A DNA stretch of 64,000 bases from Flaviramulus sp. BrNp1-15 (GTDB lineage Bacteria > Bacteroidota > Bacteroidia > Flavobacteriales > Flavobacteriaceae). How positions within the stretch are numbered: the stretch's first letter is position 1; every line of letters begins with the position of its first letter. Made by a program: the position numbers and the translations under genes. Under the pieces are notes generated by a model. That model was not told the origin of the DNA. It saw only the letters and a program-made list of their open reading frames with translations, and did no database searches. Where the stretch lies: assembly GCF_022259695.1 (NCBI RefSeq), contig NZ_CP092099.1, positions 3,432,001 through 3,496,000 of the forward strand, read 5' to 3'. This document shows, in pieces, positions 12,982 to 45,752 of the stretch.

Positions 12982-14064
12982 TTATCCATTTAAAATCTTC
13001 TCTTGATGATTAATTGATTCTTGGTGAATAGCTTTAAACATTTTTAAAACAAACTCTTCACTTAATCCTTTTGACTCTCCTTCAAGAACCATTTTACCTA
13101 AAATTTCATTCCAACGTTTAGATTGTAAAACGGCTACATTTTTATCTTTTTTAAGTTCGCCAATTCCATCAGCTACTTTCATACGTTTTCCTAGTAAATC
13201 GATAATTTGATTATCAACGACATCAATCTGAGCTCTTAAATTATTTAAAGCACTCATGTATTCTGCTTCAGCATTGCTTTCTTTTCTTATTTTCAAATCT
13301 TTCATAATTTGAACTAAACTACTTGGTGTTACTTGTTGTGCTGCATCACTCCATGCATTATCAGGATCGAAATGGGTTTCAATCATTAATCCATCAAAGT
13401 TTAAATCTAAAGCGGTTTGAGACACATCAAAAATCATATCTCTTTTACCTGTAATATGTGACGGATCGTTAATTAAAGGAATATCTGGAAATTTATTTTG
13501 AAACTCAATAGCTAATTGCCATTCTGGATTATTTCTGTATTTAGTTTTTTCGTATGTTGAAAAACCTCTATGAATAGCTCCAATATTTTTAACACCCGAA
13601 CTGTAAATACGCTCAATGCCTCCTAGCCAAAGTGCTAAATCTGGATTTACAGGGTTTTTTACCAACACAGGCTTGTCTGTACCTTCAAGTGCATCTGCAA
13701 TTTCTTGCATAATAAACGGACTTACGGTAGAACGTGCACCAATCCATAACATATCAACATCATGTTCTAAAGCTAGTTTAACATGTGTTGCATTAGCTAC
13801 TTCTGTAGTAATCTTCATTCCTGTTTCTTCCTTAACTTTTTGCAGCCATTTTAAACCTAAACCTCCTACACCTTCAAACATTCCTGGTCTTGTTCTTGGT
13901 TTCCAGATACCTGCTCTAAAATAATTAACATCGGTATCTTTTAAATCATGTGCAATTTTTAAAACCTGTTCTTCTGTCTCTGCACTACAAGGTCCTGCAA
14001 TTACCAATGGATGATCTAATTTTAAATCATCTAACCAGTTTCTCATTTCTTTTTTGTTTTCCAT
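12982..14064 (-). CDS. bifunctional 3-deoxy-7-phosphoheptulonate synthase / chorismate mutase
   Basis: Couples the first shikimate-pathway reaction with the branch to prephenate. The first 260 residues form a type I-beta DAHP synthase (AGPCSAET near 20, GARSTVSPF, AIHRGFSTYE, DPSHITGKR). The last 90 form an AroQ-type chorismate mutase (LRAQIDVVDNQIIDLLGKR with the catalytic Arg/Lys pattern). The order synthase-then-mutase is the usual one in Bacteroidota. It is the last gene of the operon pheA-aminotransferase-tyrA-this gene, 10 bases after tyrA, and shares their attenuator. The chorismate mutase part may also act as an allosteric domain, as in related fusions. Confidence 0.96.
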   Translation of the reverse strand: MENKKEMRNWLDDLKLDHPLVIAGPCSAETEEQVLKIAHDLKDTDVNYFRAGIWKPRTRPGMFEGVGGLGLKWLQKVKEETGMKITTEVANATHVKLALEHDVDMLWIGARSTVSPFIMQEIADALEGTDKPVLVKNPVNPDLALWLGGIERIYSSGVKNIGAIHRGFSTYEKTKYRNNPEWQLAIEFQNKFPDIPLINDPSHITGKRDMIFDVSQTALDLNFDGLMIETHFDPDNAWSDAAQQVTPSSLVQIMKDLKIRKESNAEAEYMSALNNLRAQIDVVDNQIIDLLGKRMKVADGIGELKKDKNVAVLQSKRWNEILGKMVLEGESKGLSEEFVLKMFKAIHQESINHQEKILNG

Positions 14065-14074
14065 AATTTTACTC

Positions 14075-14926
14075 TTAACTAATTCCTTTTAAAATATCTT
14101 TTATGTAATTGGTGTTTTCCATCTCGTTAAAAATAGCTTCAAAATCATCTTGTTTCATCAACTCTTTAAAATGTGTGAGATTTGTAATATACTCTTCTAA
14201 TGTTTCAATAACATTTGTTTTGTTTTGTTTAAATATGGGTGTCCACATAGCTGGCGAGCTTTTTGCTAAACGCACTGTGGATGCAAATCCACTACCTGCC
14301 ATATCAAAAATATCACGCTCGTTTTTTTCTTTTTCAATTACCGTTTTACCCAACATAAACGAACTGATATGCGATAAATGCGACATATATGCAATGTGTT
14401 TATCGTGAGCTTCCGGATTCATGTAACGAATACGCATACCTATATCTGTAAAAAGTTTTAAGGCTTTTTCTTGAAGCTTGAATGTTGTTTTTTCAACCTC
14501 GCAAACAATATTTGTTTTACCTTCAAACAAACCACTTAAAGCAGCAGTTGGTCCAGAATATTCTGTTCCTGCTATAGGATGCATTGCTAAAAAATTTCTA
14601 CGCTTTGGATGATTTTCAACCTCTTTACAGATATCTACTTTTGTTGAGCCTGCATCTACAACCAATCCTTCATCTGATATTTTATCTAAAATGCTTGGTA
14701 ATAATTTTACAGTTGCATCAACAGGAATTGCTATGATAACTAAATCGGCATTTTCAACATCATCTAAAGTGGCTTTCTTATCAATTAGTTTAAGTGATAA
14801 AGCTTCATCTAAAGTAGTTTGCTTTCTGCTAATACCGTGTATAATCGCCTCCGGATTATTCTTCTTGATATCTATAGCAAGACTTCCACCTATTAATCCA
14901 ACCCCTATGATATATATATTTTTCAT
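14075..14926 (-). CDS. tyrA: prephenate dehydrogenase
   Basis: Oxidative decarboxylation of prephenate to 4-hydroxyphenylpyruvate on the tyrosine branch. 283 residues with an N-terminal NAD(P)-binding Rossmann motif (IIGVGLIGGSLA), then VVIAIPVDA, the catalytic-region HPIAGTEYSG and the C-terminal helical dimerisation domain (HLSHISSFML). No ACT domain is attached, so tyrosine feedback, if any, is not through that module. Its start is 2 bases after the aminotransferase stop, indicating tight coupling within the aromatic operon. Confidence 0.95.
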   Translation of the reverse strand: MKNIYIIGVGLIGGSLAIDIKKNNPEAIIHGISRKQTTLDEALSLKLIDKKATLDDVENADLVIIAIPVDATVKLLPSILDKISDEGLVVDAGSTKVDICKEVENHPKRRNFLAMHPIAGTEYSGPTAALSGLFEGKTNIVCEVEKTTFKLQEKALKLFTDIGMRIRYMNPEAHDKHIAYMSHLSHISSFMLGKTVIEKEKNERDIFDMAGSGFASTVRLAKSSPAMWTPIFKQNKTNVIETLEEYITNLTHFKELMKQDDFEAIFNEMENTNYIKDILKGIS

Positions 14927-14928
14927 CT

Positions 14929-16074
14929 CTATTTAACTCTTGCGATTGCTTCTTCTAAATCTTCAGTTGATGCACATAAAGAAAACCTTATATAACCTTC
15001 TCCTTTATTACCAAAAATGGTTCCCGGTGTAATAAACACGTGATTTTCTTTTAAAATTATATCTATAAACTCTTCAGACTTTAAATATGCTGGCAATTTT
15101 GCCCATACAAAAAGTCCTGAAGCATTTTTGTCGTAAGTACAATTTAAAGCCTCTGCTAATTGCCACACCAAATTTCTACGTTTTTGATATACATTATTTA
15201 AAGTAGCAAACCACATTTTTGAACATTTTAAAGCTTCTATTGCTCCCTTTTGAATGCCATAAAACATTCCAGAATCCATATTACTTTTAACTTTTAAAAT
15301 GTTATTTATATGCGTGCTGCTACCAACAACCATACCTACACGCCAACCGGCCATATTAAAAGTTTTACTTAATGAGTTTAACTCTAAGCAAACCTCTTTT
15401 GCGCCATCAACACTTAAAATACTTTTTGGGTTATCGTTTAATATAAAACTATACGGATTGTCGTTTACAATTAAAATATTGTGTTTTTTACCAAAGGCCA
15501 CCAATTCTTCAAACAAATGTTTAGTTGGTTTAGCTCCTGTTGGCATGTGCGGATAATTTACCCACATCAATTTCACCTTACTTAAATCTAATTGTTCTAA
15601 AGCTTTAAAATCTGGCAACCAATTATTGGTTTCATCTAATTCATATAAAACACCCTTAGCTCCTACTAATTTTGTTACTGATTGATAAGTTGGATATCCT
15701 GGGTTTGGGATTAAAACCTCATCGCCTTCATTTAAATATGTCATAGAAATATGCATAATCCCTTCCTTACTTCCCATTAATGGCAACACCTCTGTTAACG
15801 AACTTAAATTAACTGAGTAATGTTCTTTATAAAACCTAGAAATAGCATCTCTAAGCTCTGGTAATCCTTGATAGCTTTGATATTTATGAGCATTAGGATG
15901 TAAAAGACTTTCTGTTATGGCATCAACCACTTTTTGTGGCGGTTGCAAATCTGGACTACCAATACCTAAATTAATTACAGGTTTGCCATTTGCAATCATT
16001 AAATTAACTTCTCTTAATTTTTTTGAGAAGTAGTATTCTTCAACGGTATGTAAGCGTTTTGCTACTTCAATCAT
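14929..16074 (-). CDS. PLP-dependent aminotransferase of the aromatic operon
   Basis: Class I/II aminotransferase of 381 residues. The PLP lysine is in SLSKTFNMAGWRVG (about residue 230-243); NPGYPTY and the WVNYPHMPTG cofactor-pocket segment are typical. Its position between pheA and tyrA suggests transamination of phenylpyruvate and 4-hydroxyphenylpyruvate, or of prephenate, but the family also includes LL-diaminopimelate and alanine aminotransferases, so substrate is inferred from context. It overlaps the pheA end by 4 bases (ATGA), a sign of translational coupling. Confidence 0.9.
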   Translation of the reverse strand: MIEVAKRLHTVEEYYFSKKLREVNLMIANGKPVINLGIGSPDLQPPQKVVDAITESLLHPNAHKYQSYQGLPELRDAISRFYKEHYSVNLSSLTEVLPLMGSKEGIMHISMTYLNEGDEVLIPNPGYPTYQSVTKLVGAKGVLYELDETNNWLPDFKALEQLDLSKVKLMWVNYPHMPTGAKPTKHLFEELVAFGKKHNILIVNDNPYSFILNDNPKSILSVDGAKEVCLELNSLSKTFNMAGWRVGMVVGSSTHINNILKVKSNMDSGMFYGIQKGAIEALKCSKMWFATLNNVYQKRRNLVWQLAEALNCTYDKNASGLFVWAKLPAYLKSEEFIDIILKENHVFITPGTIFGNKGEGYIRFSLCASTEDLEEAIARVK

Positions 16075-16898
16075 AGCTTTGCATTTTTATATTCTCCTAA
16101 TACTTTAAAGCCTTCTCCCATAATTTCTATTATAGATTTTGCTTTTTTAAAATCTGAATACGTTTCAAAAGTAACATCAACAAAAAACGCATATTTCCAA
16201 GGTGTTTCAACAATTGGTAACGACTGAATTTTAGTTAAGTTTAATTTACAATCGCTCATTACATTTAAAATGGCCGCTAAACTGCCTCGTTTATGATCGG
16301 TTTCAAATTTCACTGACGCTTTGTTGATCTCTTCTTCTGGAACTTCAGAATTTGTACGTTTTACAATAGCAAAACGTGTTTCGTTATGCTTTATAGTTTG
16401 TATACTATGTGCTAAAATATCTAAGTTAAATATTTCGGCTGCCATAACACTTGCAATTGCTCCAACACCTTGTAATTGTTGCTCTTCAATACGTTGAGCT
16501 ACCTCGGCAGTATCTTTATCTTCAACAAGTTTAATATGCGGGTATTCCTTAAAAAACTCTTTACATTGCAACAATGCCATAGGGTGAGAATAGACTTCCT
16601 TGATATCTGAAATATTTTGATTTGGAAGCGCCATTAAATTATGCTGAATATCTAAATAATGCTCGCCAACAATATGCAATCCGTATTTATCGATTAACGC
16701 ATAATTGGGAATTATGGAGCCTGCAATAGAATTCTCTAAAGCCATTATAGCAGAATCGCATTCTTCTGTTATTAAAGAATCTACAACCCTATCGAATGTT
16801 AAACACTCGATAACATCAACTCCTTTTTCAAAAAATTGTTCTGAAACAATATGATGAAAAGATCCTTTTACGCCTTGTATTGCAACCGTTTTAATCAA
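16071..16898 (-). CDS. pheA: prephenate dehydratase
   Basis: Converts prephenate to phenylpyruvate. 275 residues: a prephenate dehydratase domain (GVKGSFHH at 9-16, and the catalytic TRFAIV near 170) followed by an ACT domain (about 188-270). In the ACT domain the motifs that bind phenylalanine in other bacteria, GALV and ESRP, read GSLA and QSLP, so feedback binding may differ. No chorismate mutase domain is attached; that activity is at the end of the operon. First structural gene after the attenuator, 40 bases beyond the terminator hairpin. Confidence 0.95.
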   Translation of the reverse strand: MIKTVAIQGVKGSFHHIVSEQFFEKGVDVIECLTFDRVVDSLITEECDSAIMALENSIAGSIIPNYALIDKYGLHIVGEHYLDIQHNLMALPNQNISDIKEVYSHPMALLQCKEFFKEYPHIKLVEDKDTAEVAQRIEEQQLQGVGAIASVMAAEIFNLDILAHSIQTIKHNETRFAIVKRTNSEVPEEEINKASVKFETDHKRGSLAAILNVMSDCKLNLTKIQSLPIVETPWKYAFFVDVTFETYSDFKKAKSIIEIMGEGFKVLGEYKNAKL

Positions 16899-16937: not shown

Positions 16938-16965
16938 AAAAAAAAGTCTCGATTTTCATCGAGAC
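16938..16965 (-). terminator. attenuator terminator before pheA
   Basis: Minus strand: GTCTCGAT-GAAA-ATCGAGAC, a perfect 8-bp stem with a tetraloop, followed by eight T. It lies between the aromatic leader peptide and pheA. Its 5' half (GTCTCG) can instead pair with CGAGAC inside the leader-peptide coding region (17004-17009), with an inner AATTTAT/ATAAATT hairpin, giving an alternative antiterminator. In-sequence evidence is strong; the switching itself is inferred by analogy with known amino-acid operons. Confidence 0.88.
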
Positions 16966-16990
16966 CCATATTTAAATTTATTATTATAAA

Positions 16991-17068
16991 TTATACATAC
17001 AATGTCTCGTTCCTTTTGCTATAAAAGAAATAAAACCAGTTGTTAAAATATGTATAATATACTGTCAT
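16991..17068 (-). CDS. aromatic leader peptide of the phe/tyr operon (attenuation)
   Basis: A 25-residue open frame reading MTVYYTYFNNWFYFFY and then nine more residues before TAA. Eleven of its 25 residues are aromatic (six Tyr, four Phe, one Trp), clustered between positions 4 and 16. It is followed 25 bases later by an intrinsic terminator whose 5' half is complementary to the codons just after the aromatic cluster. This is the layout of a ribosome-mediated attenuator: ribosomes stalled at Tyr/Phe codons would free CGAGAC to form the antiterminator and allow pheA transcription. The peptide itself need have no function. A weak -7-like box (17085-17092) precedes it. Confidence 0.88.
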   Translation of the reverse strand: MTVYYTYFNNWFYFFYSKRNETLYV

Positions 17069-17084
17069 TGTCTTAATTATGTCG

Positions 17085-17092
17085 CTAAAGTA
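17085..17092 (-). promoter_or_regulatory. weak candidate -7 element for the aromatic operon
   Basis: TACTTTAG on the minus strand, one mismatch from TAnnTTTG, 17 bases before the leader-peptide ATG. A TTG occurs further upstream but about 25 bases away, longer than usual. It is the best promoter candidate I see in the 322-base gap between pheA and gldA. Apart from this box, the attenuator and a gldA -7 box, the gap holds nothing else that I can identify. Confidence 0.35.
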
Positions 17093-17220: not shown

Positions 17221-18114
17221 ATGTCTATTCAAGTAGAGGGAGTTTCAAAACTTTATGGTAATCAGAAAGCCTTAAACCAAATATCTTTTAAAGTAGATAA
17301 ACCAGAAATTGTTGGTTTTTTAGGACCTAATGGTGCAGGAAAATCTACTATGATGAAAATTCTAACTACCTACTTAAATGCAAATGAAGGAGTTGCTAAA
17401 GTAAATGGATTTGATGTAAATAAAAACAAACAACAAGTCCAACAAAGTGTAGGCTATTTACCAGAGCACAATCCTTTATATTTAGACATGTTTATTAAAG
17501 AATATTTAGCTTTTAATGCAAATATTTATAAGGTTAGCAAACAGCGTATAGACGAAGTTATAGAACTAACTGGTTTAACTCCAGAATCTCATAAAAAAAT
17601 TGGTCAGTTATCCAAAGGGTATCGTCAACGGGTTGGTTTAGCCAATGCTTTATTGCACAACCCTGATGTTTTAATTTTAGATGAACCTACAACAGGCTTA
17701 GACCCCAACCAATTGGTAGATATTAGAAATTTAATTAAAACCATTGGTAAAACTAAAACGGTATTCCTCTCAACACATATTATGCAAGAAGTTGAAGCCA
17801 TGTGCGACCGTGTTATTATTATTAATAAAGGTGAAATTGTTGCAGATAAAAAACTAAAAGAGCTAAGAGACGAAAAAGAACAAACCGTTATTGTAGAGTT
17901 TGATTACCGTGTTGAAGATGCTTTTTTAAAACAATTACCTAAAGTAAAAAATGTGGTTAACACATACGATTTTGTTTACGAAATTACTTTTAAAACATCT
18001 GAAGATATGCGTTCTTATGTGTTTGATTTTGCACATGATAATCAACTAAAAATCCTTCAACTTAATCAAAAAAATGCAAGTTTAGAAAGTTTATTTAGAG
18101 AATTAACCAGTTAA
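17221..18114 (+). CDS. gldA: gliding-motility ABC transporter ATP-binding protein GldA
   Basis: ATPase subunit of an ABC transporter; in Flavobacterium GldA works with the membrane proteins GldF and GldG and is linked to gliding motility. 297 residues with Walker A GPNGAGKST (35-43), the ABC signature LSKGYRQRVG, Walker B VLILDEP and the H-loop LSTHIMQEVE, then a C-terminal extension of about 80 residues typical of the CcmA/GldA group. No partner permease gene is adjacent here, as is common for gldA, so assignment rests on the family match rather than on context. Confidence 0.85.
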   Translation: MSIQVEGVSKLYGNQKALNQISFKVDKPEIVGFLGPNGAGKSTMMKILTTYLNANEGVAKVNGFDVNKNKQQVQQSVGYLPEHNPLYLDMFIKEYLAFNANIYKVSKQRIDEVIELTGLTPESHKKIGQLSKGYRQRVGLANALLHNPDVLILDEPTTGLDPNQLVDIRNLIKTIGKTKTVFLSTHIMQEVEAMCDRVIIINKGEIVADKKLKELRDEKEQTVIVEFDYRVEDAFLKQLPKVKNVVNTYDFVYEITFKTSEDMRSYVFDFAHDNQLKILQLNQKNASLESLFRELTS

Positions 18115-28415: not shown

Positions 28416-28468
28416 TTTGATATTATTTATATCTGTATGTCATCAAGAAAAGTAAAAGAAACACTTTT

Positions 28469-28578
28469 CGTTATCTTTCCAATAATTTTAATTATTAGTA
28501 GAATTTAGCACCTTCTTTAAAGATAAAGGGTTGCCAAGGCTTCAACGGGTCTATTCCCTCTACCTTTCTTGATAACAC
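28469..28578 (-). promoter_or_regulatory. SAM-I (S-box) riboswitch of the metH operon
   Basis: Minus-strand RNA contains the conserved S-box core: TATCAAGAAAGGTAGAGGGA, then GACCC, TGAAGCC, GGCAACC and AAGGTGCTAAATTCT. P1 closes with TGTTATC (28572-28578) against GATAACG (28469-28475). Junction and pseudoknot-region spacing fit SAM-I. Downstream there is an AT-rich hairpin GAAAAGT/ACTTTTC (28448-28470) with only a short, interrupted U-tract, so the way it shuts off expression is not obvious. It controls metH (both genes), the 80-residue protein and metF. Confidence 0.92.
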
Positions 28579-44224: not shown

Positions 44225-45502
44225 TTATTTAATTGTGGCAAATGCAGTTTTTAAATCGGCTTTTAAATCGTCTAAATCTTCAATACCAACTGATAAGCGA
44301 ATTAAATCTCCCGTAACTCCTGCCGATTCTTGTTCTACTTCATTTAACTGTTGGTGGGTTGTACTTGATGGATGAATTATTAATGATTTAGTATCTCCAA
44401 TATTAGCTAATAATGAAAATAATTTGGTGTTATCTGCTATAGCTTTTGCAGCTTCAAAACCACCTTTTGCACCAAAAGTAACAATACCACTTTGTCCTTT
44501 TGGTAAGTATTTTTTAGTTAAAGCTTTATACTTACTGCTTTCTAAACCTGGATAATTTACCCAAGCTACTTCGTCTTGTTGTTCGAGCCACTTAGCAAGA
44601 GCCAAAGCATTTTCACTGTGTTGCTTTATTCTTATTGGTAAAGTTTCTAAACCTTGAATAATGTTAAAAGCATTTGTTGGACTTAAAGCCCCTCCAAAAT
44701 CTCTCAACCCTTCTAAAATTAGTTTAAACGTGTATGAAGCGGCACCCAAAGTTTCATAATATTTCAGTCCATGATATCCTGCTGAAGGTTCTGTGAATTC
44801 TGGAAATTTACCATTGGCCCAATCAAAATTACCACCATCAATAATGGCTCCTCCTAGAGAATTTCCTTGTCCGCCAATATATTTTGTAAGTGAATGAATG
44901 ACAATATTTGCTCCGTGTTCAATAGGGTTTAATAGAGCTGGTGTTGCTACCGTGTTATCAACAATAAAAGGCACACCTGCTGCTTTTGAATGTTTTGCAA
45001 TAGCTTCTATATCTAAAACATCTAATTTAGGATTCCCTAGAGATTCAACAAAAAATGCTCTGGTATTATCTTGTACTGCGGCTGCAAAATTATCTGGATT
45101 ATCTGCATCAACAAAGGTGGTTGTAATACCTAATCTTGGTAAAGTTACTTTTAATAAATTATACGTTCCGCCATATAAACTACTAGACGCTACAATATGG
45201 TCTCCAGCTTTTAAAAGCGTTAACAAACCTGTTGAAATTGCCGATGTACCTGATGCAAATACAACTGCTCCCACACCGCCTTCTAAAGCAGCCAAACGCT
45301 CTTGTAAAATTTGGTTGGTTGGATTGTTTAATCGTGTGTAAATAAAACCTAATTCCTGAAGTGAAAATAGATTTGCAGCATGATCTGAATTATTAAACAC
45401 ATACGATGTTGTTTGATAAATAGGAACTGCTCTCGTTCCTCCGTTTGCTGCAAAATCATGTCCTGCATGTAATGCGTTTGTTGCTAATTTTTGTGTGCTC
45501 AT
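44225..45502 (-). CDS. metY: O-acetylhomoserine aminocarboxypropyltransferase
   Basis: 425 residues, the usual length for MetY/Met17, which makes homocysteine from O-acetylhomoserine and sulfide. TNALHAGHDFAANGGTRAVPIYQTTSYVF at the N-terminus is a classic start of the family, and the PLP lysine is in HSLTKYIGGQGNSLGG. First gene after the second SAM riboswitch, followed by the fusion gene that would make acylhomoserine and by metZ. Two sulfhydrylase-type enzymes in one operon is notable. Confidence 0.93.
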   Translation of the reverse strand: MSTQKLATNALHAGHDFAANGGTRAVPIYQTTSYVFNNSDHAANLFSLQELGFIYTRLNNPTNQILQERLAALEGGVGAVVFASGTSAISTGLLTLLKAGDHIVASSSLYGGTYNLLKVTLPRLGITTTFVDADNPDNFAAAVQDNTRAFFVESLGNPKLDVLDIEAIAKHSKAAGVPFIVDNTVATPALLNPIEHGANIVIHSLTKYIGGQGNSLGGAIIDGGNFDWANGKFPEFTEPSAGYHGLKYYETLGAASYTFKLILEGLRDFGGALSPTNAFNIIQGLETLPIRIKQHSENALALAKWLEQQDEVAWVNYPGLESSKYKALTKKYLPKGQSGIVTFGAKGGFEAAKAIADNTKLFSLLANIGDTKSLIIHPSSTTHQQLNEVEQESAGVTGDLIRLSVGIEDLDDLKADLKTAFATIK

Positions 45503-45612: not shown

Positions 45613-45617
45613 GTTTG

Positions 45618-45723
45618 GTTATCTATCTAAAACATATGTTTAAGTAGAATTTAGCACCTTCTTTACTAGTAAAGGGTTGCTAAGGCTTCACAGGGTCTAA
45701 TCCCTCCGCCTTTCTTGATAACA
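45618..45723 (-). promoter_or_regulatory. SAM-I (S-box) riboswitch of the metY operon
   Basis: Minus-strand RNA with the S-box core: TATCAAGAAAGGCGGAGGGA, GACCC, TGAAGCC, AGCAACC and AAGGTGCTAAATTCTACT. P1 is GTTATC (45717-45722) against GATAAC (45618-45623). Most core positions are identical to the metH riboswitch at 28.5 kb, while the P3/P4 loops differ. Controls metY, the three-domain fusion and metZ. Confidence 0.93.
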
Positions 45724-45752
45724 TTTCAATACGTGTTTGAACTTTGTGAGTG

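Follow-up and report, generated by a model that had tools for sequence, protein, structure and literature searches.

A putative leader-peptide attenuator rich in tyrosine and phenylalanine codons ahead of pheA in Flaviramulus and other Bacteroidia

The closest described counterparts of the element reported here are the enterobacterial leaders of pheA (pheL) and pheST, both of which are attenuators, and multi-specific leaders such as those of ilvGMEDA and thr, where one leader senses more than one amino acid. In TnaC, the nascent peptide arrests the ribosome on sensing a free amino acid. Attenuation in amino-acid operons was the subject of a comparative study by Lopatovskaya and others in 2010, which may list cases from Bacteroidetes.

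The mechanism of leader-peptide attenuation was established in enteric bacteria. In the open-licence literature that we searched, it has hardly been described for Bacteroidota, and there is one direct precedent. The available portion of a 2021 transcriptome study of Flavobacterium psychrophilum reports that the 5' region of pheA carries a structured element, which is conserved among other Flavobacteriaceae and has no Rfam hit, and separately mentions 'strong clues' that leader-peptide attenuators precede amino-acid operons (PMC9723704). Leader-like short frames are also mentioned in general terms, as far as the accessible text goes, for Bacteroides thetaiotaomicron (PMC7366714). The statement in the preliminary description of our locus that such leaders are little documented in Bacteroidota is therefore nearly right, save that the F. 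psychrophilum study, in the portion available, already lists a conserved structured element before pheA.

Within the 64,000-nucleotide stretch of Flaviramulus sp. BrNp1-15 DNA that was analysed (the window), a leader frame and an intrinsic terminator can be read directly from the minus strand at 17068-16938, ahead of pheA. The surrounding genes are as follows.

17221-18114, plus strand: gldA, the divergent neighbour
16071..16898, minus strand: pheA, prephenate dehydratase, first gene of the putative operon (Pfam PF00800, 9.9e-56; TTG start)
14929..16074, minus strand: class I/II aminotransferase (LL-diaminopimelate aminotransferase-like), overlapping the end of pheA; below NCBIfam cut-offs
14075..14926, minus strand: tyrA, prephenate dehydrogenase (NF006307, above cut-off)
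12982..14064, minus strand: DAHP synthase fused to chorismate mutase (PF00793 and PF01817, above cut-off)

Judging by their spacing, the four minus-strand genes probably form one transcript, and because of what these genes encode the operon would make phenylalanine and tyrosine and feed the common pathway. Since gldA is divergent, the terminator ends no upstream gene; assignment to the neighbouring gene was ruled out, as gldA reads away from it. The elements between gldA and pheA are listed below in the direction of transcription.

17085..17092, minus strand: candidate -7 promoter box TACTTTAG, Bacteroidetes type TAnnTTTG with one mismatch, read from the sequence
16991..17068, minus strand: leader peptide frame MTVYYTYFNNWFYFFYSKRNETLYV, from ATG at 17068 to the TAA stop ending at 16991; frame kept in relatives
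17048..17062, minus strand: segment 1, 5' arm of a possible protector 1:2, with its partner at 17000-16986; from folding and pair counts
16997..17009, minus strand: segment 2, CGAGAC + UUGUAU, 5' arm of the predicted antiterminator; from folding, alignment and covariation
16975..16992, minus strand: hairpin AATTTAT-AATA-ATAAATT nested within the antiterminator; from folding, 84.8% of cells paired
16960..16971, minus strand: segment 3, AUAUGG + GUCUCG, common to the antiterminator (with segment 2) and the terminator (with segment 4)
16946..16965, minus strand: intrinsic terminator hairpin, segments 3:4, GTCTCGAT-GAAA-ATCGAGAC; 8 Watson-Crick pairs, 100% of cells paired in the 76-row alignment
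16938..16945, minus strand: T8 tract of the terminator, read from the sequence

The preliminary description had reported a 25-codon frame with 11 aromatic codons, an 8-bp terminator stem with eight T close to pheA, a CGAGAC (17009-17004) complementary to the terminator 5' arm GTCTCG, and a nested AATTTAT/ATAAATT hairpin. This observation is confirmed: re-reading of MTVYYTYFNNWFYFFYSKRNETLYV gave the same counts (6 Tyr, 4 Phe and 1 Trp), the stem and T tract are present with 39 nt between the terminator and the pheA TTG start (16898), the complementarity exists in the sequence, and the nested hairpin lies at 16992-16975. The antiterminator is longer than first seen, as a second block, UUGUAU/AUAUGG, extends CGAGAC/GUCUCG, and when most of segment 4 is left out the RNA folds into all three blocks, including the nested AAUUUAU/AUAAAUU. 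In the window, terminator and antiterminator each evaluate to -13.5 kcal/mol, and the leader-to-terminator fold to -30.4 kcal/mol versus -15.6 +/- 2.65 for 200 shuffles. The possible protector 1:2 has in addition an inner helix that joins 17036-17023 to 17017-17004, and its two helices are paired in 92.6% and 89.1% of cells of the 76-row alignment.

Such a combination seems to be rare by chance. Ten simulated 64-kb sequences with the dinucleotide make-up of the window contained 0-3 frames each with at least 8 aromatic residues in 14 codons, none of which had a strong terminator (script score at least 26) within 70 nt, and in the real window the sole listed aromatic frame (at least 7 in 14) with such a terminator is the pheA leader. 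The transcript probably starts near 17078, given the -7 box, which differs at one position from the consensus TAnnTTTG that the accessible text gives for F. psychrophilum (PMC9723704). A scan for sigma-70 promoters was set aside in favour of this box, as it found 4 against 3.4 +/- 1.8 in shuffles. A similar box is present at the same place in most aligned rows, and upstream of an insert in four relatives. In these four (L051, L055, L058 and L067, about 2200-2365), a hairpin followed by TTGCATGT lies between promoter box and leader start; 5 of its 25 predicted pairs carry two-sided changes among the four sequences, and it had no Rfam match at E up to 1.

We consider it highly likely that transcription is attenuated here by a ribosome-mediated device of the trp/phe leader type, which would control the pheA-aminotransferase-tyrA-DAHP synthase/chorismate mutase operon through charged tRNA-Phe and tRNA-Tyr. 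The preliminary description had already taken the region for a ribosome-mediated attenuator, a reading now supported by conservation, frame-preserving gaps and covariation. RNA polymerase would start near 17078, with a ribosome trailing it through the leader frame. With ample phenylalanine and tyrosine, the ribosome would pass the aromatic codons toward the stop and cover segment 2, so that the terminator 3:4 forms; with either amino acid short, it would stall on the aromatic run and leave segment 2 free to pair with segment 3 before segment 4 exists, allowing readthrough into pheA. What we infer here is that the leader is translated, that ribosomes stall in it, and that transcription terminates in a way that responds to amino acids.

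The close relatives, namely the best 80 of the 550 relatives in the scan (Flaviramulus, Flavivirga, Algibacter, Tamlana and others), retain the element throughout: the terminator is present in 80/80 and an aromatic leader in all 79 with enough upstream sequence. Seventy-six of the 81 sequences entered the close alignment, which omits L085 (contig end), L070 and L084 (duplicates), L036 (nearly identical to L033) and L056 (odd alignment). On the evidence of these sequences, the leader is shown to be selected as a reading frame, with 39/39 gaps inside it being multiples of three (all of 3 or 6 bases) against 1/284 after the stop codon, gap runs being tallied per sequence and thus not all independent events. 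Codons 13-16 are aromatic in all 76 rows, with exchange of Tyr and Phe. Codon 21 (Glu), which falls within segment 2, reads GAG in 74 rows, GGG in the other 2 and GAA in none. This is the pattern to be expected of a frame that is translated as far as the aromatic run, with the bases beyond it acting as RNA. The terminal Tyr of the leader was dropped as a control codon, as it is Cys (TAT to TGT) in 7 of the 70 close leaders with a full C-terminus, where the altered base in most cases (6 rows) can still form a G-U pair.

Within the close set, 92.8% of the antiterminator cells are paired, compared with 27-44% when the register is slid. Changes in the 2:3 helix of the 76-row alignment are, however, one-sided only, with no double compensatory change and covariation not above shuffles, and for that reason the close set does not prove the antiterminator by itself. 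The 1:2 + 3:4 structure is 93.4% paired in the close set, and its 18 double-change cells exceed all 500 shuffles, an excess that can arise from relatedness; sliding the register by one gives 19 such cells, matching the 18 of the true register, and the count of double-change pairs (6) is not above shuffles, 127/500 of which reach it.

Covariation became visible once more distant sequences were included. The analyses of covariation, spacing and masked folding used 168 of 183 sequences (80 close, 58 middle and 30 distant), the distant group coming only from the 44 regions in which the script found both terminator and leader. Omitted were 10 sequences with arms outside the set hexamer pattern, which limits the variety of types, two with weak leaders (L213 and L217), and L209, L241 and L244, for which the script had picked the wrong hairpin or frame. 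The segment-3 hexamers of the 168 fall into 10 types, GTCTCG in 117, GTCCCG in 29, ATCCCG in 7, and GTTCCG, GCCTCG and others in at most 4. When the best pairing was searched freely, the leaders scored a mean of 16.42 with their own arm versus 13.84 +/- 0.17 with permuted arms (maximum 14.44, n=5000), and with permutation at the level of the ten types 0/5000 reached the observed mean. The own arm lay above the mean of the other types in 159/168 sequences, which are related and thus not independent events, and the own type was the best in 8 of the 10 types. Five of the six positions show one Watson-Crick pair replaced by another, in 2:3 as well as in 3:4.

An earlier free-pairing test pointed the same way, with own means of 16.4, 17.2 and 17.9 in the three groups versus 9.8, 11.7 and 11.6 for arms of other kinds, and with the own arm above the 90th percentile of swapped arms in 49/80, 45/59 and 36/44. 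A fixed-register test gave 14.53 versus 12.58 +/- 0.13, but its design is biased toward the own arm, for which segment 2 had been picked as the best partner; it was therefore repeated with each arm allowed to search freely, and the free-search figure is the one that we use. The predicted antiterminator, which would exclude the terminator, is thus kept by compensatory change. The aromatic codons, the terminator and the GTCTCG/CGAGAC pairing, whose retention with covariation in related Flavobacteriaceae had been suggested as a check on the preliminary description, are all kept, the covariation emerging with distant members of the family and class added and not in close relatives alone.

The element extends well beyond the close set. 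A covariance model built from the close-relative sequences (R1) matches 239 of 299 family genomes at E<=0.1, a threshold that includes chance matches, and among the matches listed scores drop steadily from 139 to 48 bits. In the Flaviramulus genome itself it gave one strong match (3.1e-21), the next being at 0.037, and no second copy of the element was found. A mid-score sample of 60 of 61 consecutive R1 matches (9.6e-13 to 1.4e-5) had pheA just downstream together with an aromatic leader in 59/60; G008, the one match omitted, directly precedes its pheA by coordinates. Independently of the model, we examined the sequence before pheA in 20 family, 20 order and 20 class or phylum genomes, the family genomes being chosen partly for lacking a strong R1 match, and searched for a terminator up to 220 nt and a leader up to 400 nt from the start of the Pfam match. 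Terminator and leader (at least 7 aromatic residues in 14) were both present in 20/20 family members, in 7/20 order members, with two more having a terminator and a weaker leader, in 15/17 genomes drawn from the class's other families, and in 0/3 sampled genomes outside the class. Nine of the 11 order members without a terminator belong to a single family, f5, all nine sampled genomes of which (G016, G317, G325, G332, G339, G345, G350, G358 and G370) have no terminator within 220 nt and no aromatic leader within 400 nt before pheA. Given these counts, the element is class-wide but not universal. Two class members outside the order (L231 and L234) have two consecutive aromatic short frames before pheA, MAYRSAYYFYFFCFFSSCRG then MGYTYYYFFSLMDHRRLWVV in L231, and these might be tandem attenuators.

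Of the 183 leaders, 178 reach 7 or more aromatic residues in 14, and all 178 contain both Phe and Tyr. Tryptophan was dropped as a required sensed residue, as it occurs in only 96/178.

The position of segment 2 relative to the aromatic codons is largely constant. Sought up to 45 nt past the aromatic run, segment 2 starts 9-12 nt past the last aromatic codon in 154/168 sequences (median 11, sd 1.4), and 11 nt past the last codon of the run in the window, whereas the stop codon lies anywhere from 3 to 39 nt past the last aromatic codon (sd 7.0; n=168). Beyond the codon in its A site, a ribosome covers some 9-10 bases, and with this footprint the 11-nt spacing places the start of segment 2 where a stalled ribosome would end. 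Nine of the 168 leaders end one codon past the run, among them six of the close set (L026, L034, L044, L046, L050 and L080), and 15 end at or before segment 2; as segment 2 is nevertheless retained, it is kept as RNA. We regard the fixed spacing as the strongest sign that it is the position of a ribosome that is sensed here.

Stalling could in principle also be brought about by the nascent peptide, arresting the ribosome when it senses the free amino acid as in TnaC rather than through a lack of charged tRNA. The RNA layout would then be identical, and the peptide core YTYFNNWFYFFFSK is indeed well conserved in close relatives, partly due to the pairing of the same bases. Outside the close set, however, residues vary within and between the aromatics (for example TKQYFWNGFYFYFFFKRGTGLL and KLFNTYYFGYFYYFSKSRG), and it is aromatic content and spacing that persist, so that we judge peptide-mediated arrest very unlikely compared with stalling for want of charged tRNA.

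Folding under a ribosome mask is consistent with the proposed switch. Before segment 4 is made, the window's antiterminator has a probability of 0.99 with the ribosome at the last aromatic codon versus 0.0003 with the ribosome at the stop, and it exceeds 0.5 in 79/80 close, 57/58 middle and 26/30 distant sequences in the former state versus 0/80, 2/58 and 8/30 in the latter. Without a ribosome and before segment 4, the value is 0.91 in the window and above 0.5 in 55/80, 33/58 and 25/30, so that the predicted protector 1:2, although compatible with the fold and the pair counts, would not clearly produce the textbook outcome of termination in untranslated RNA. For the full-length transcript, equilibrium folding prefers the terminator in all states (group means at least 0.86), including with a stalled ribosome (0.99 in the window, with group means of 0.89, 0.89 and 0.86). 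Because equilibrium favours the terminator, antitermination would have to rest on the order of synthesis, that is, to be kinetic.

That the no-ribosome fold also permits 2:3 in the window would suit a plain terminator, or a leader controlled by a protein or metabolite, with the aromatic frame being incidental; moreover, terminators are common between genes and the hairpin itself needs no leader. Yet this region lies between divergent genes, with no upstream gene ending there, and neither the frame-preserving gaps nor the fixed distance from last aromatic codon to segment 2 has any meaning without translation. In addition, of the 183 leaders picked beside a pheA terminator, 178 have 7 or more aromatic residues in 14. 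As for metabolites, no Rfam riboswitch or T-box reached its gathering score at the locus in the window, nor did any Rfam family there or in the 15 relatives searched, and the seven sub-threshold matches at the locus come from unrelated families with E of 0.75 or worse; a metabolite riboswitch or T-box was accordingly rejected. Altogether, an incidental frame strikes us as slightly less credible still than peptide-mediated arrest. Finally, a functional hydrophobic microprotein, with RNA structure being secondary, can practically be dismissed, for although short aromatic peptides could enter membranes and the frame is under selection, leader length and sequence vary, segment 2 survives in the 15 leaders that stop at or before it, and a complement of the terminator arm stands at a fixed distance past the aromatic run.

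Leaders of this kind are present elsewhere in the same genome. The scan found trpE preceded by the Trp-rich frame MNTILNKTWWWCFRN (then stop) and a terminator, and hisG by the His-rich frame MTFIQLHHHFHICSQAN (then stop) and a terminator, while ilvD is preceded by the Ile/Val-rich frame MRNKVLNIISIIVIVIISQ (then stop) and, some 250 nt upstream of the gene, by a hairpin AACCTTCC...GGAAGGTT that has a T tract, which was recognised from sequence and fold and not by the terminator scan (trpE, hisG and ilvD sites at L249:1288-1410, L248 reverse complement 1187-1300 and L251 reverse complement 1030-1150, respectively). For second trpE-like and ilvD-like genes of this genome, no leader with terminator was found.

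The single mid-score R1 match away from pheA (L176, identical in position to L261) proved to be a Met/Cys-rich leader before the gene of O-acetylhomoserine sulfhydrylase (metY). We surveyed 30 metY loci in the family, 20 of which were scanned with Rfam. Five loci (L261, L266, L268, L270 and L273) have tandem Met/Cys-rich frames with a terminator after the first, as exemplified by MNKNLNIMCRCMMCINYAGDTIV and MMMCCMRMMCCYMIRYCQT, and L255 has a single Met/Cys-rich frame and a terminator. None of the five scanned among these six Met/Cys-leader loci has a SAM-I riboswitch before metY, and in three there is one after the gene; a SAM-I riboswitch precedes metY at 11/15 of the other scanned loci, the window's own included. 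It thus looks as though a Met/Cys attenuator may stand in place of the riboswitch at 6 of the 30 metY loci; nothing relevant on methionine-codon leaders was found in the open-licence literature that we searched. The window has SAM riboswitches (RF00162) at 28468-28578 and 45616-45724, both on the minus strand, the second of which precedes a metY homologue at about 44237-45487.

Here we speculate, with slightly more confidence than doubt, that the pheA leaders descend from one Phe-or-Tyr attenuator present since the ancestor of the class, in which segment 2 has been held at the front edge of a ribosome stalled on the last aromatic codon while the sequences of the segments changed freely. If so, leader-peptide attenuation, counting also the trp, his, ilv and Met/Cys leaders, would be a main control of amino-acid synthesis in Bacteroidia, and transcription would be tightly coupled to translation in bacteria whose translation starts are largely independent of Shine-Dalgarno pairing. 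Attenuation works only if the ribosome keeps pace with RNA polymerase, which in some bacteria, such as Bacillus subtilis, it is reported not to do, and these leaders make coupling in Bacteroidota directly testable. A class-wide case with covariation and ribosome spacing also represents a candidate family for inclusion in RNA libraries, and points to a possible way of regulating a combined Phe and Tyr operon without a dedicated repressor.

Compared with the enterobacterial pheL and pheST leaders, the present element has the same leader peptide rich in the end product, the terminator before the gene, the alternative hairpin and the control of prephenate dehydratase. It differs from them in carrying Tyr as well as Phe codons in 178/178 leaders, in preceding a combined Phe and Tyr operon with a DAHP synthase, in having no Rfam match at the gathering score, and in placing segment 2 inside the frame in most leaders. 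With trp-type attenuators it shares the three-segment logic, and it is set apart from them by the phylum, the amino acids, and a leader start with no evident Shine-Dalgarno sequence before it. Its site, its conservation in Flavobacteriaceae and the lack of an Rfam match are those given for the pheA 5' element in the accessible part of the F. psychrophilum study (PMC9723704), and the pheA leader is very probably the same element, to which the leader sequence, the segments, the spacing and the distribution past the family are added here relative to that text. The mechanism is of a known kind, to which the present analysis contributes the anatomy, the presence of both Phe and Tyr codons, the rule of spacing and the distribution across the class.
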